Assembly: GCF_020097815.1 (NCBI RefSeq)
Contig: NZ_CP083663.1
Location: 2,418,001-2,482,000 of the forward strand
Origin: Haloprofundus salinisoli
GTDB lineage: Archaea > Halobacteriota > Halobacteria > Halobacteriales > Haloferacaceae
DNA: 64,000 bases
Reading direction: 5' to 3'
Shown: one piece after another, positions 4,318 to 24,053 of the stretch
How the letters are laid out: every line of letters begins with the position of its first letter
Numbering within the stretch: the stretch's first letter is position 1
Notes under the pieces: model-generated
Databases searched by the model: none
What the model was told of the DNA's origin: nothing
Seen by the model: the letters and a program-made list of their open reading frames with translations, nothing else
Made by a program: the position numbers and the translations under genes

Positions 4318-4521
4318 TTGAGCGAATCGGGGGCACGAGTCAGTGTTTCGACTGGTTCGAGGCCCTCGGGCGGGTGTCGTGAGTACATGTTCGTAGCCCG
4401 GTCAGCTGCCGTTGAATCCTGTGAGTTGGCCGCCAGTTCTATGTTTCAGTGACGGCTACTTTCACCCGTGGCGTAATCGACGAACGATTCTCCGGGGGTC
4501 CTGAATCGAAAACAGTCGGGA

Positions 4522-4680
4522 GTGCTGTTCGTCTTGCTGGGAATCGCCGGGTTGTCGGTGCTCGGAGCTCTCGGAGACGGCGGCGCACGCACGGTGGCTG
4601 GTATCGTCGCCGGAAGCGTGTTCACGCTCATCGGTGTCGGCGTCTTTTTGACGCGATTCCGAGTTGGGCCGAGCCGATGA
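4522..4680 (+). CDS. Small two-helix membrane protein
   Basis: Starting at GTG 4522, the frame encodes 52 residues with two hydrophobic helices (VLFVLLGIAGLSVLGALG and TVAGIVAGSVFTLIGVGVFL) and a basic C-terminus. Start is uncertain: an in-frame stop lies a short way upstream and no ATG is available, so GTG 4522 or a CTG/TTG before it must serve. No family recognised. Confidence 0.45.
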   Translation: MLFVLLGIAGLSVLGALGDGGARTVAGIVAGSVFTLIGVGVFLTRFRVGPSR

Positions 4681-5237: not shown

Positions 5238-5516
5238 CGCTGTCAGTTCTTCGGATTTCGATATAGCGTTGTCGGTCAGCCGGATTCCCGCGTTCGAGCA
5301 ACGAGATTTGAGCCGCGGTCACCACTCTTCTTGAGATGACTGTTGGTTACCAGTGACCATAACGTCACGTCGACATAGGTTTTTGGGTCGCTGTGTATGC
5401 GTTGAGGGGCAGGGGGCTGAATCGAAGGATGAGACGTCGGAGAGGGTTGAGTTGGCTACGTTGATACCTTCAAGGAGTGGTCGGTACGAGCAGTCGTACT
5501 GAATACAACGTACTTC

Positions 5517-5978
5517 TCAATCAAGATCTGTCTCAGTCGGCAACCGCATGATCGAGAGCCAAAACCGCTCTAATTCCAGTATCATGTCGATAAACTCGGT
5601 GGGATCGACCGGCTTCGTAAGGTACCCGTTCGCACATAGCTCGTAGGACTGGACGATGTCGATTTCGGCTTCCGAACTCGTGAGGACGATAATCGGGATG
5701 TGCCGCCGGTCAGAGTCCCCGTGGAGCTCTTCGAGCACCTCGTCTCCGTTCTTTCGAGGGAGGTTGAGATCTAACAGCACGAGGTCGGGCCGAGGTGCGT
5801 CGGCGTAGTCGTTTCGTTGAAAGAGGAAATCGAGGGCGTCGACGCCGTCGTTGACGACGTGGAGTGTATTTTTGATCATCCCGTCTTTGAACGCCTCTTT
5901 CGTGAGACGGACGTCGCCAGGATTATCCTCGACGAGGAGAATGTCGACCGGCTTGGTACTTCTCTGCTCACTTGTCAT
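5517..5978 (-). CDS. Stand-alone receiver-domain response regulator (Rcp1-like), copy 1
   Basis: A 153-residue protein made only of a CheY-like receiver. Acidic pocket residues lie in LLVEDNPGD, the phospho-acceptor is Asp70 in VLLDLNLPRKNG, the switch Thr is in VLTSSE, and the conserved Lys is in YLTKPVD. There is no output domain. The LNLPRKNGDEVL block is typical of the Rcp1-type regulators that pair with phytochrome-like histidine kinases. No kinase is adjacent. Its start overlaps the stop of the Cys-rich micro-protein gene (ATGA-type overlap), so the two are translationally coupled. It is roughly two-thirds identical by eye to the receiver at 21016. Confidence 0.9.
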   Translation of the reverse strand: MTSEQRSTKPVDILLVEDNPGDVRLTKEAFKDGMIKNTLHVVNDGVDALDFLFQRNDYADAPRPDLVLLDLNLPRKNGDEVLEELHGDSDRRHIPIIVLTSSEAEIDIVQSYELCANGYLTKPVDPTEFIDMILELERFWLSIMRLPTETDLD

Positions 5979-6130
5979 CTAATCACCTGATGGACGTTGA
6001 CAAAACACTCGGTGGGCACGGCGAACTGCTCCTCCCTGTGGGCCTCGGTCGCGTCGAACACCTTCTCAAACTCACCAATCATCGTTCTCTGAAATGAACA
6101 GTCTGTACATTCCCGGTTGGAACACGACAT
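5975..6130 (-). CDS. Cys-rich micro-protein coupled to a response regulator
   Basis: A 51-residue protein with four cysteines near the N-terminus and one more later (MSCSNRECTDCSF...FAVPTECFVNV). C8 and C11 form a CxxC pair; C3 and C42 may complete a metal site. The central segment FEKVFDATEAHREEQF is acidic and helical. Start ATG 6130 is 7 nt after the HalOD1 stop, and its TGA overlaps the receiver ATG, so it is the middle gene of a three-gene signalling operon. No family recognised. Confidence 0.6.
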   Translation of the reverse strand: MSCSNRECTDCSFQRTMIGEFEKVFDATEAHREEQFAVPTECFVNVHQVIR

Positions 6131-6137
6131 CAGAACG

Positions 6138-6410
6138 TTATCTCTTCGAATCTGCGTTCCCGTCGACGGAGACTATGCCACCGCTACTGACGGTCACCTC
6201 GTAGCCGTTGTTGGGAAAGTCGATCTGGAGGGAAGGGTTGCTACGTTCAGTTGTTTCGACAAGCGTGTCCAGAGCCTCTGGATCAATGGTCTCATAGAGC
6301 GGGTCAAGTTCCGCCTGATCGGCTTCTTCGAGAGCGGCAATCCTCTCAACAACTGCCTGGCTTGGTGTGACAGTCTCCAGTTTTGTGTTCATGTTGGGAG
6401 CTATGCTCAT
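6138..6410 (-). CDS. HalOD1 output-domain protein, copy 1
   Basis: A 90-residue protein matching the HalOD1 domain pattern: SQAVVERIAALEEADQAELDPLYETIDPEALDTLVE, then two beta strands IDFPNNGYEVTVSSGGIVSVD. In haloarchaea HalOD1 is found alone or fused to response regulators and is presumed a signalling output module. It opens an operon with the Cys-rich micro-protein and the receiver. ATG 6410 is chosen because an AT-rich box (GAATATTTAG, minus strand) lies about 40 nt before it; a GTG at 6443 is an alternative. Confidence 0.75.
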   Translation of the reverse strand: MSIAPNMNTKLETVTPSQAVVERIAALEEADQAELDPLYETIDPEALDTLVETTERSNPSLQIDFPNNGYEVTVSSGGIVSVDGNADSKR

Positions 6411-6714
6411 TGATTGATCGTATAGAGAGGCACCGTCTTCCACTAAATATTCGAGGAAGCTTATCTTTTCGAATCTATATAATGTAAAATTTGATACCTT
6501 AGCGGTTGTAAGTTATCCAGTTCTTGTGCAAAGAGCCCGAAACACGGATGGTTCTGAACTGCTGTTGTCGGTGCCCTAGAAGTCGTCGAGCGTCACGATG
6601 TCTCTGCGAAGCGCGTGCGGTTGAGTGCCTCGAAGCACGCCTCCAGGTGTCCGTGAGGGTGTACGCGACCTTTGATACAGTAGAGTTAAATCAGGTTTCG
6701 GACCTGAACTGCCA
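6411..6714. other. Non-coding stretch before tRNA-Thr with AT-rich promoter region
   Basis: Near 6444-6500 the sequence is very AT-rich and holds the probable HalOD1 promoter (minus strand). Near 6560-6660 short minus-strand runs look protein-like (HLEACFEALNRTRF, then RRDIVTLDDF in another frame). They are not connected in one frame, so they may be a decayed C-terminal gene fragment. No intact gene seen. Confidence 0.4.
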
Positions 6715-6788
6715 AGCCAGGAGTGGGATTTGAACCCACGAAGTCTCGATTACAAGTCGAGTGCATGAACCGCCCATGCTCTCCTGGC
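6715..6788 (-). tRNA. tRNA-Thr (anticodon TGT)
   Basis: A full cloverleaf can be drawn: 7-bp acceptor GCCAGGA/TCCTGGC, D stem GCAT/ATGC, anticodon stem CTCGA/TCGAG with loop CTTGTAA, T stem GTGGG/CCCAC, discriminator T. The anticodon TGT reads ACA. Position 8 reads G, where T is nearly universal. Confidence 0.9.
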
Positions 6789-17816: not shown

Positions 17817-20800
17817 ATGGGCCCCTCTGACTCGGCTCCGGACGCTACTCGGGAAGATGTCCGGAACTTTTTTTCACGGCTGGATAAACCAGGTACGCCC
17901 CTCACTACCGCTGAAGTCGCGGAGAAACTGGAGTGCACTGACCGAACCGCACAGCATAATCTGGAAGCGCTTACCGAGCTCGGGGAGTTACAGACAAGGC
18001 AACTAGACAATCAGAACCAGATCTGGTGGCAGTCGAGGGGCAGGAGCGAACCGGCCGGCCAGCAGTCCGACATCGAGGAGTTCGGCGCGTTCGTATGTGC
18101 TGTCGAGGACTACGCCATCTTCATGCTCGATTCCGATGGTGAGATTGCCAGTTGGAACGAAGGAGCCGAACGGATCAAAGGGTACACAGAAGACGAAATC
18201 ATCGGGGAGCACATTTCGAACTTCTACACTGACGCCGATATCGACGACGGGGTGCCTCACACGAACCTCGAAACCGCGGCGACGGAGGGCCCCGTTGAGG
18301 ACGAGGGCTGGCGGGTCCGTAAGGATGGCTCGCGGTTCTGGGCGAACGTCGTCATTACAGCGATACGCGACGAGGATGGCACCCTTCAGGGGTTCACGAA
18401 AGTAACCCGTGACATGACCGAACGGCGAGAGTACGAACAACAGCTTCGCCAGGAACGAGATTTCACCCAACAGATCCTCGAAACCGTACCGGTGAGCATC
18501 TGCACGGTTACTCCCGACGGCGAGTTCGCGCGCGCGAACCGGCAGGCGCTCGAGCATATCGATGGCGAGGAATCCGATCTGACGGAGTACACCGTCGACT
18601 CGTGGGAACTCTACGACGGCGAGGGAAACCCGATTCCAACCGACGAGTGGCCGTGGACGCAGGTCACTGACACCGGCGACCCCGTGTACGATTACCAGTG
18701 TCAGGTTGACCTCCCGGATATCGGCCGCCGGTGGCTCTCGATCAACGCCGCCCCAATCGAAGGCGACCAGTCCGAGGACGACCGGGTCGTGTTCACCGCA
18801 GACGACATCACCGAGCAGAAAGAACGCGAACGGCAGCTCCGCCGCGAGTCCAAACAAACCGAGAAGCTGTTGCGGACGGCCCCGATTGCGATCGCAGTCC
18901 AGAACGCCGAGGGCGAGATGGTCCTGGCGAACCAGCGGGCCCAAGAGGCGCTTGGACTCTCCGAACAGGAGATCATCGAGGAACCCGACGACGTCGACGA
19001 CTGGGAAGTGTACGACGCATTTGGCGATCAAACTGCTCCTCACGAAACGCCGTCTTCTCGCGTCCTAACGACCGGCGAGGCGGTGCTTGACGAAGAGCTC
19101 GTCATCGACCCTCCAAGCGGCGAGCAGATGCAGTTCCGTATCAACGCTGCTCCTCTTTTCGGTCCCGATGGGACGGTGGAGCGCGTCATCACTGCCGGCG
19201 AAGATATCACCGAACTCAAACGGCGCGAACGGCAACTCGAACAACGGAAGAGCGAACTCGAAACCGAGTTGAGCGGTATCCTCGGCCGAATTTCCGACGC
19301 GTTCTACGCGCTCGACGAGGAGTGGCAGTTCACACATATCAACGACCGGGCTGTCGAGATTTTCCAACAGCCCGAGGACGAGTTACTCGGGCGGTCTATC
19401 TGGGAGGTGTTTCCCGAGGAAACTGAGGGGACAATCTGGGAGAACTTCCACACCGCAATGGATACGCAGGAGACGGTCAGCTTCGAGTTATACGTCGAGG
19501 AAATCGACAGTTGGCTGGAGTTTAACGTCTACCCCTCTGAAACGGGTCTGTCGATCTACTTCCGCGACATCACCGACCGGAAGGCCAACGAGCAAGAGCT
19601 GGCCATGTACGAGACGATTATCGAGACGATCCACGAGGCTATCTACGTGCTTGATGACGACCTGCAGTTCACGATGGTCAACGAGGCGTTCACGGAACTG
19701 ACCGGGTACGCTCGCGATGAACTGCTCGGCGAACACGCCTCTCTCGTCGTCGATGAAGAGACGATCGAACGGGGAACGGGGTTACGTGGAGAACTGGCCG
19801 ACGGGAAGGAGGTCAGTCCGACGCTGGAGATCGCCATCGAAACGGTGAACGATAACCGTATCCCCGTGGAGGGGTCCTTTACGCCACTCCTCTACAGCGA
19901 TGGAGAGCACAAACGAATCGGGGTACTGCGAGACATCACCGAACGCAAGGAGAGCCGGCGCAAGCTCGAGGAGAGCGAACGCCGGTACAGAACGCTTGTC
20001 GAGCATTTCCCGAACGGTGCAGTCGCGTTGTTCGACGAGGACCTGTGTTACACTACCGCCGGCGGCGAACTCATGAATGTAATGGGTACCGCTCTGGAGG
20101 ACCGAATCGGAACCAGCATCCACGACCTCTATCCGGACGAACTCCTCGAGGAGATCGAACCGTACTTCCACGCCGCGCTGGAGGGCGACGAACACTCGTT
20201 CGAGGCCGAGTATCTCGGCCGACATCTGCTCGCCTACACCCTTCCCATCCAAAACGCCGACGACGAGGTTTACGCGGGCATGCTCGTCGTTCAGGACATC
20301 ACTGAGTTCAAGGAAACCCAACGACGGCTCGAAGCGTCGAACGAGCGCCTCGAACAGTTCGCCTACGCCGCCTCTCACGACCTGCAAGAACCGCTTCGGA
20401 TGATTTCGAGCTATCTCCAACTGGTCGAGCAACGGTACGCCGACGTCCTCGACGAGGACGGTGAGGAGTTCCTCGAATTCGCCGTCGACGGTGCCAAGCG
20501 GATGCGCGATATGATCGATGCGCTCCTCACGTACTCCCGGATAGAGACCCAGGGCGACCCCTTCGAGCCGGTCGATCTCGACACAGTACTCGAAGACGTG
20601 CGTGAAAACCTCCAGATGCGGATTGGGGAGACTGAAACCACCATCAGGACGGAACCACTGCCAAACGTCCAGGGCGATGCCACACAACTGCGACAAGTAT
20701 TCCAGAACTTGATCTCGAATGCGATCGAGTACGCCGGCGACGAACCGCCGCAGGTCCACATTTCGGCCGAGCGAACCGGTCACGGGTGGGTGGTCTCGGT

Positions 20801-21023
20801 CCGCGATGAAGGGATCGGCATCGATCCCGACGATGCCCATCGTATCTTCGAGGTGTTTCAGAGCCTTCACGGTCGTGCGGACCACTCCGGCACCGGCATC
20901 GGCCTCGCACTTTGCAAGCGGATCGTCGAACGTCATGGTGGTGAGATTTGGGTTGAGTCTGAACCCGAGGAGGGCGCGACGTTCTCGTTCACACTGCCTG
21001 TGGGGGGTGAGTGCAATGAGTGA
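17817..21023 (+). CDS. HTH-PAS(6)-histidine kinase, soluble
   Basis: A 1068-residue sensor kinase without transmembrane segments. Residues 10-72 are a winged HTH (TTAEVAEKLECTDRTAQHNLEALTELGEL). Six PAS repeats follow (about 88-205, 215-335, 345-470, 480-600, 605-725, 735-845), most closed by a DITE(R/L/Q)KxRE motif. HisKA has His854 in AASHDLQEPLRM, and the HATPase domain shows NLISNAIEYAG, RDEGIGIDPD and SGTGIGLALCKRIVERHGG. SHDLQEPLR kinases usually phosphorylate Rcp1-like receivers, and the next gene is one, overlapping by eight bases. An HTH on a histidine kinase is unusual. The signal is probably redox, light or a small molecule; no cofactor Cys or His was identified. Confidence 0.9.
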   Translation: MGPSDSAPDATREDVRNFFSRLDKPGTPLTTAEVAEKLECTDRTAQHNLEALTELGELQTRQLDNQNQIWWQSRGRSEPAGQQSDIEEFGAFVCAVEDYAIFMLDSDGEIASWNEGAERIKGYTEDEIIGEHISNFYTDADIDDGVPHTNLETAATEGPVEDEGWRVRKDGSRFWANVVITAIRDEDGTLQGFTKVTRDMTERREYEQQLRQERDFTQQILETVPVSICTVTPDGEFARANRQALEHIDGEESDLTEYTVDSWELYDGEGNPIPTDEWPWTQVTDTGDPVYDYQCQVDLPDIGRRWLSINAAPIEGDQSEDDRVVFTADDITEQKERERQLRRESKQTEKLLRTAPIAIAVQNAEGEMVLANQRAQEALGLSEQEIIEEPDDVDDWEVYDAFGDQTAPHETPSSRVLTTGEAVLDEELVIDPPSGEQMQFRINAAPLFGPDGTVERVITAGEDITELKRRERQLEQRKSELETELSGILGRISDAFYALDEEWQFTHINDRAVEIFQQPEDELLGRSIWEVFPEETEGTIWENFHTAMDTQETVSFELYVEEIDSWLEFNVYPSETGLSIYFRDITDRKANEQELAMYETIIETIHEAIYVLDDDLQFTMVNEAFTELTGYARDELLGEHASLVVDEETIERGTGLRGELADGKEVSPTLEIAIETVNDNRIPVEGSFTPLLYSDGEHKRIGVLRDITERKESRRKLEESERRYRTLVEHFPNGAVALFDEDLCYTTAGGELMNVMGTALEDRIGTSIHDLYPDELLEEIEPYFHAALEGDEHSFEAEYLGRHLLAYTLPIQNADDEVYAGMLVVQDITEFKETQRRLEASNERLEQFAYAASHDLQEPLRMISSYLQLVEQRYADVLDEDGEEFLEFAVDGAKRMRDMIDALLTYSRIETQGDPFEPVDLDTVLEDVRENLQMRIGETETTIRTEPLPNVQGDATQLRQVFQNLISNAIEYAGDEPPQVHISAERTGHGWVVSVRDEGIGIDPDDAHRIFEVFQSLHGRADHSGTGIGLALCKRIVERHGGEIWVESEPEEGATFSFTLPVGGECNE

Positions 21024-21474
21024 GCAGGACTGCACCAAGGAACCAGCGGACATTCTCCTTGTCGAGGACAATCCCGGTGACGTCCGCCTCACAGAGGAAG
21101 CATTCAACGAGTGCCGCATTACCAACACGCTCCACGTGGTCGGAGATGGCATCGAGGCACTGGACTTCCTTTATCAACGCGGCGATCACGCCGATGCGCC
21201 ACGCCCGGATCTCATCCTCCTCGATCTCAACCTCCCACGAAAGAACGGTGACGAGGTGCTCGAGGAGATCGCCGAGAATCGAGAGCTCTCGCGTATCCCC
21301 GTGCTCGTGCTGACGAGTTCGAAATCAGAAGCGGACATCGTCAGGTCGTATGATCTGCACGCGAACGCATACCTCACGAAACCGGTCAATCCCGAAGTGT
21401 TCGTAGAGATGGTTCGAACGTTCGAACAGTTCTGGTTCTCGATCGTTCAACTGCCGCCGAAGGAAAGAGGATAA
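21016..21474 (+). CDS. Stand-alone receiver-domain response regulator (Rcp1-like), copy 2
   Basis: A 152-residue single receiver domain: LLVEDNPGDVRLTEEAF, phospho-Asp70 in LILLDLNLPRKNG, VLTSSKSE, and YLTKPVN. No output domain. Start ATG 21016 overlaps the kinase stop, so kinase and receiver are translationally coupled and form one two-component pair. Its close paralogue at 5517-5978 lacks a kinase neighbour. Confidence 0.92.
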   Translation: MSEQDCTKEPADILLVEDNPGDVRLTEEAFNECRITNTLHVVGDGIEALDFLYQRGDHADAPRPDLILLDLNLPRKNGDEVLEEIAENRELSRIPVLVLTSSKSEADIVRSYDLHANAYLTKPVNPEVFVEMVRTFEQFWFSIVQLPPKERG

Positions 21475-23642: not shown

Positions 23643-24053
23643 TTATCGCTGTTGAGGGAGCTCGTAGACGTTGACCTCGCCGGTGCTGAAGACGACGACT
23701 TCGTACTCGTCGTAGGTGAATCCGACGTAGCGCATCGGCGTCGCCTCGGGTGCCGCGTTGCTGGACAACACCGCCTCCGCGAATCCGAGGTCGATGACGT
23801 TACCGATCGGCGGCTGCAGCTGGAGCGGTTCGGTGTTCTTTGCTCGTGCGAGCGCCTTTGCGACGGCGAAGGTCAACGTATCCGGATCGTCCGGGTCGTA
23901 CGTTGCGCTCGCGACTTCTGTACGACGTGCGGTGACGAACTCGTCCACCGACGCGGTCGACTCTGAGAAATCGGAATCGGTCGAACGCTCGGTGCTCGAC
24001 GCCCGATTCGGCTCCTTCGTTGAATCTCTCTTCGAGTTGCCCGGTCTATCCAT
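23643..24053 (-). CDS. HalOD1 output-domain protein, copy 2
   Basis: A 136-residue protein with a charged, Ser-rich N-terminal half (residues 1-45) and a HalOD1 domain: DTLTFAVAKALARAKNTEPLQLQPPIGNVIDLGFAEAVL, then MRYVGFTYDEYEVVVFSTGEVNVYEL. The second-half beta motif parallels the copy at 6138. A TATA-like CATTTAAATC lies upstream on the minus strand near 24080. No receiver is fused or adjacent. Role in signalling is inferred from the family only. Confidence 0.7.
   Translation of the reverse strand: MDRPGNSKRDSTKEPNRASSTERSTDSDFSESTASVDEFVTARRTEVASATYDPDDPDTLTFAVAKALARAKNTEPLQLQPPIGNVIDLGFAEAVLSSNAAPEATPMRYVGFTYDEYEVVVFSTGEVNVYELPQQR

Follow-up and report, generated by a model that had tools for sequence, protein, structure and literature searches.

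A conserved pairing of HalOD1 genes with a small cysteine- and histidine-containing protein in haloarchaea, joined by an Rcp1-type receiver in Haloprofundus salinisoli

A single haloarchaeal genome can encode as many as 49 stand-alone HalOD1 proteins, and fusions of a receiver to HalOD1 (REC-HalOD1) are also known; an acidic DPEALD stretch of HalOD1 has been proposed to bind metal (PMC5847659, in the sections covered here). Haloferax volcanii requires one HalOD1 protein, DdfA, to take on its disk shape, and no small-gene partner of DdfA is described in the covered sections of that report (PMC10869688). Nor is a Cys-rich neighbor of HalOD1 described in the portion of the HalOD1 literature covered, a search that lay outside subscription papers and preprints. 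An arrangement resembling the one analyzed here occurs in the bop regulon of Halobacterium salinarum (Brz/Brb-Bat), where a very small Cys/His protein is likewise co-encoded with small regulators. Small zinc-finger proteins encoded beside Bat and its homologs cooperate, or have been proposed to act, in Halobacterium transcription, and the zinc-finger genes adjacent to Bat homologs have short gene overlaps (PMC2253796; PMC3184054, in the sections covered).

The window, a 64,000-nucleotide stretch of H. salinisoli DNA, contains three co-directional genes on the minus strand. The first (6138–6410; ATG at 6410, stop TAA at 6140–6138) encodes a 90-amino acid HalOD1 output-domain protein. The second (5975–6130; ATG at 6130–6128, TGA at 5977–5975) encodes a 51-amino acid mini-protein that is a DUF7542-like zinc-finger candidate, and the third (5517–5978; ATG at 5978–5976, stop at 5517) encodes a 153-amino acid stand-alone receiver of the Rcp1/RcpA type. 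The mini-gene ATG lies 7 nt past the HalOD1 stop, and the receiver ATG overlaps the mini-gene TGA (ATGA). An earlier note on this DNA had described these three frames, the gap, and the overlap correctly, and the operon that it proposed is consistent with three co-directional genes, which would form a single transcription unit. The upstream region (6411–6604, minus strand), a candidate that presumably holds the promoter, is conserved in three copies of the cassette, with 82% DNA identity to locus L099 of the same genome and 88% to the second contig (C2) of the congener G002; the alignments reach 6604. Scans with bacterial-type promoter and terminator models gave nothing useful for this archaeal host. 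The downstream flank (5328–5516, minus strand) is common only to the window and L099. Because the rough codon score used for gene calls overlooked several true genes, absences were rechecked with tblastn or the HalOD1 HMM.

The window HalOD1 protein matches Pfam PF18545 (E=8.1e-21; 74.4 bits, cut-off 26.3) and is 81% identical in amino acid sequence to its paralog at L006/L099 and 84% identical to the G002 copy. Like DdfA, it is a stand-alone protein with this domain, and its score against the DdfA model (NCBIfam NF053557) is 67.5 bits, 2.5 bits short of the cut-off of 70. This genome has 23 HalOD1 matches, among them one REC-HalOD1 fusion (L021). The single-chain architecture of such fusions does not occur at the window locus, where the frames are separate and the mini-gene lies between them. 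The window holds another HalOD1 gene (23643–23948), which has no small Cys-rich neighbor.

Two paralogs of the mini-protein are encoded elsewhere in the genome (L002, 60% identity, E 1.2e-12; L003, E 0.003), both directly downstream of a HalOD1 gene; a third, weak match (E 0.92) was dropped. A search with a small alignment found copies in three of five Haloprofundus species, and 391 genomes of the class gave ten matches with E <= 2e-13, in six genomes, and three more at ~1e-5. No relatives were found in searches of genome_contigs, viral_contigs, or plasmids, and a match in Bosea (E = 0.1) was set aside. The earlier note had not recognized the protein. It has no match over threshold in Pfam, NCBIfam, PHROGs, or PADLOC. 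A profile search of the PDB found no relative (MCM5, at E of about 0.7–0.9 only, was rejected), and an AF2 model from the single sequence had a pLDDT of 47.6, too low to be informative.

In mini-gene comparisons dN/dS ranged from 0.21 to 0.46, and four of six had an excess of synonymous change at p < 0.05. These four were window versus L002 (dN/dS 0.21, Fisher p = 7.5e-5), L002 versus G004 (p = 6.8e-5), the B-type mini-genes (L003 group) of this genome versus G002 (p = 0.012), and L118 versus L119 (p = 0.02). The remaining two were the B-type genes of G004 versus G002 (p = 0.07) and the window versus its nearest congener, G002 (dN/dS 0.46, p = 0.11, not significant). This last comparison, the only close pair within the three-gene cassette, shows the weakest constraint. 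Within the B-type pairs, dN is lower for the mini-gene than for its HalOD1 gene (0.14–0.18 versus 0.24–0.36), with the opposite pattern in L118/L119 (0.15 versus 0.05). Judged from sequence comparison, the 51-residue frame is a gene and not a chance ORF, because it has paralogs, relatives in five other genomes, adjacency to HalOD1, and a synonymous excess.

The mini-gene frame is interrupted ahead of the last ligand in two of the ten closely related loci, G002 C2 (L103, about 4494–4645) and G362 (L117, 1486–1614). Both indels map to one short stretch immediately preceding the segment that carries the last His, and the lost C-terminal segment is readable in another frame. A programmed frameshift was rejected because the two shifts run in opposite directions. 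Overall, the mini-gene is under constraint but labile.

The window mini-protein has the ligand pattern C8-x2-C11...H31...C42. Within the family, C8 and C11 are invariant and H31 is present in most copies; L003 has a Tyr at position 31, followed by a Cys three residues later. At position 42, most relatives have a His and the window copy alone has a Cys; the window copy has also lost the Y-x-L with which the finger begins. The description of the protein as Cys-rich is accurate for the window copy (C3, C8, C11, and C42) but does not extend to the family, as C42 is specific to the window and C3 is not conserved. The ancestral pattern indicated by the alignment is C-x2-C...H...H, distantly like DUF7542 (PF24398). 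Small CxxCxF relatives score below the DUF7542 cut-off (best 25.7 versus 28.2 bits), as seen for six of the seven relatives tested, HalOD1-linked or not (17.2 bits for the HalOD1-linked L118), while the window protein itself gave no hit to this family at the gathering score of 28.2 bits. The pattern plausibly suits one metal site, in line with the earlier suggestion of a possible metal-binding peptide, and predicted haloarchaeal zinc fingers can be metal-free (PMC11241148, in the sections covered). Brz carries a CPxCG-related motif, whereas the window protein has CTDCS instead; the partner of Brz is Bat and that of the mini-protein is HalOD1, and no sequence relation between the two small proteins is shown here.

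The link of the mini-protein to HalOD1 holds throughout the close family. In all ten close loci (the window; L108 and L109 in the same genome; L103 and L110 in G002; L111 and L112 in G004; L117 in G362; L118 in G061; and L119 in G090), from six species and three GTDB families, the mini-gene starts −4 to +9 nt from a HalOD1 stop. Gene order in these loci establishes a conserved HalOD1–mini-gene pair. Three Haloprofundus species share one of the pairs in synteny, flanked by an LrpA-like gene and a gene for a membrane protein. Among 12 more distant CxxCxF relatives (L034, L120 to L128, L132, and L138, the last judged by eye), none has HalOD1 directly upstream, and a HalOD1 gene occurs elsewhere in the flanks of L120 and of L113/L034. 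The distant relatives mostly keep the CxxCxF...H...H plan, and profiles of the linked and unlinked sets match with a probability of 98.3%, a comparison that is partly circular, as a related profile had been used in the searches that yielded the second set. The mini-gene accompanies only three of the 23 HalOD1 genes of this genome; at the HalOD1 copy L006 it was lost or never present. In the B-type pair, the HalOD1 proteins (L003, L030, and L031) have lost the DPEALD stretch.

The receiver matches Response_reg (PF00072; 70.1 bits, cut-off 30.2) and, in the PDB, 5te9 (4.9e-42) and Rcp1 (1i3c, 3.4e-35; aligned to residues 6–148 of 153). Residues E17/D18, D70, T100, and K122 are present, with positions assigned by eye. 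The similarity to Rcp1/RcpA phytochrome-type receivers spans almost the entire protein and takes in the C-terminal FWL...RLP tail, and there is no output domain. The four nearest relatives (L099 in the same genome, L100 in G002 C1, L101 in G001, and L102 in G004) all lie directly behind a PAS histidine kinase gene. The kinase stop is at or beside the receiver start in L099, L101, and L102, and the L100 kinase frame is open to the end of the stretch translated. Elsewhere in the window (18684–21474), a PAS histidine kinase gene overlaps a second Rcp-like receiver gene. Because all these are kinase-linked stand-alone receivers, the lack of an output domain is the rule for the Rcp1 type. The earlier note was thus right that the receiver has no output domain, but this is normal for the type and no sign of a split regulator. 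The window receiver differs from Rcp1/RcpA in being detached from a kinase gene and placed behind the HalOD1–mini-gene pair.

A receiver gene follows the mini-gene in only two of the ten loci, the window and G002, and none was found in the available flanks of the other eight. This bears on the proposal of the earlier note that the three genes encode a split response regulator, with the mini-protein bridging the phosphorylated receiver and HalOD1. The ATGA overlap, which implies coupled translation of mini-protein and receiver, agrees with a bridge. However, eight of ten pairs do without a receiver, and L099, in the same genome, has a kinase gene between HalOD1 and receiver and no mini-gene. 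The note had suggested looking for the small gene beside HalOD1/receiver pairs in other haloarchaea, with frame disruption between strains as evidence against its proposal. The one other such locus, on the second contig of G002, has a 1-nt deletion that replaces the C-terminus of the mini-protein, close to that outcome. A bridge has the least in its favor of the explanations considered here, and we regard it as very improbable.

The same loci may be read in another way, with the mini-gene as a decaying passenger and HalOD1 and the receiver as a split response regulator functioning without any bridge. L099 keeps HalOD1 and the receiver around the kinase without a mini-gene, the one other three-gene cassette has a disrupted mini-gene, the window copy has replaced H42 and lost its finger start, and the REC-HalOD1 fusion in this genome joins the same two modules. 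Against this, the window copy has an unbroken frame that retains C8, C11, and H31 and has Cys in the fourth ligand position. Moreover, a receiver match near HalOD1 is rare, occurring in 5 of 152 loci (L009, L174, L021, L164, and L264), of which L009 and L174 are this cassette and L021 is the fusion. A passenger mini-gene has a minor but appreciable chance of being correct. A functional link between HalOD1 and the receiver is possible, as REC-HalOD1 fusions are known (PMC5847659, sections covered) and one is encoded in this genome.

Comparison with L099, in which the kinase stands where the window has the mini-gene, points to how the cassette arose. The two loci are 82% identical over 6136–6604 and 85.6% identical over 5328–5978, and only the middle differs; their receivers are 88% identical. 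In the receiver tree, the window groups with L099 (support 80) and then with G002 C2 (81), whereas HalOD1 site patterns slightly favor a grouping of the window with G002 C2 (20 sites versus 14 and 14). Because these signals disagree, the two ends of the cassette may differ in history, as expected from recombination between copies. The receiver has a kinase-linked ancestry; it lies outside the conserved unit and was, by these comparisons, probably added recently by recombination.

The cassette is inserted beside tRNA-Thr(TGT) (6715–6788, minus strand), a variable insertion site in the genus. The gap at this tRNA is ~65 nt in G004 versus ~1.4 kb in the window; G001 and G003 have partial tRNA copies at the site, and G002 and G003 carry other DNA there. 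The tRNA gene borders the variable region in Haloprofundus (window 6715–6788, L104 1823–1844, L107 2918–2941), and the partial tRNA-end copies of two congeners are located upstream, a layout resembling an integration hot spot. A search of the far side of the window cassette gave no copy of the tRNA end. The absence of the ~1.4-kb stretch from G004, the other inserts and partial tRNA copies of congeners, and the related cassette on the second contig of G002 would fit three genes carried as passengers of an element integrating at this site, with no function in common. The HalOD1–mini-gene pair, however, recurs at unrelated and syntenic chromosomal places, so the pairing is independent of the tRNA-Thr island, and we consider it improbable that the genes are only passengers of such an element.

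Other small partners of HalOD1 emerged from a census of 152 loci (156 frames), drawn from this genome and the best-scoring listed loci of 30 relatives and thus not a random sample. Ten small CxxC frames start −30 to +60 nt from a HalOD1 stop, and eight look real: four of the mini-protein family and four DUF7576-like (L005, L150, L152, and L211; 62–100 amino acids, Cys-rich, −11 to +1 nt after HalOD1), with the DUF7576 identity confirmed by Pfam for L152, the one checked. HalOD1–DUF7576 pairs have the same order, HalOD1 followed by a small Cys-rich protein, but belong to a different finger family (CxxCG...CxxxC). Three loci (L163, L182, and L200) have a non-CxxC partner of 56–61 amino acids (ELKALLRRAYE...CRNG-EHPDW(D)), for which the L163 copy matched no Pfam family over threshold, and two have a DUF7331-like small partner, one of them confirmed. 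The 156 frames were also screened for a fusion of HalOD1 to the mini-protein; L183, with CGVCSF before HalOD1 but no matching His, was taken as a chance occurrence. Inspection by eye suggests a tandem of two HalOD1-like domains in L158, and in L016 HalOD1 is divergent from a kinase gene related (55%) to the receiver-linked one. Two queries of viral_contigs confirmed no HalOD1. HalOD1 might be an adaptor platform whose interchangeable co-translated metal-finger subunits (from the C-C-H-H family, from DUF7576, and perhaps from further families) each direct it to a different target, and an added receiver gene might wire it to two-component signaling; we regard this broader scheme as doubtful.

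We give an even chance to HalOD1 and the mini-protein being a co-translated functional pair, with the receiver as a later input. HalOD1 and the mini-gene would form a two-gene core, translated together across the −4 to +9 nt junction, whose products are partners. The mini-protein would be a single metal finger, ancestrally C-C-H-H, most likely binding HalOD1 or giving it contact to nucleic acid or protein, by analogy with the small zinc-finger proteins that serve Bat-type regulators. In the window lineage, recombination would have joined this unit to a duplicated Rcp1-type receiver. A PAS histidine kinase acting in trans, for example that of L099, could phosphorylate the receiver, and we infer that the signal may in this way reach the HalOD1–mini-protein unit.

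If confirmed, a dedicated small partner would be a first point of entry to the way in which HalOD1 reaches its target, which is of interest given that cell shape in Haloferax is under the control of one HalOD1 protein (PMC10869688, sections covered). The pairing would also explain part of the many uncharacterized Cys-rich micro-proteins of haloarchaea. The window would catch a two-component receiver in the course of being rewired from a kinase to a HalOD1 unit.
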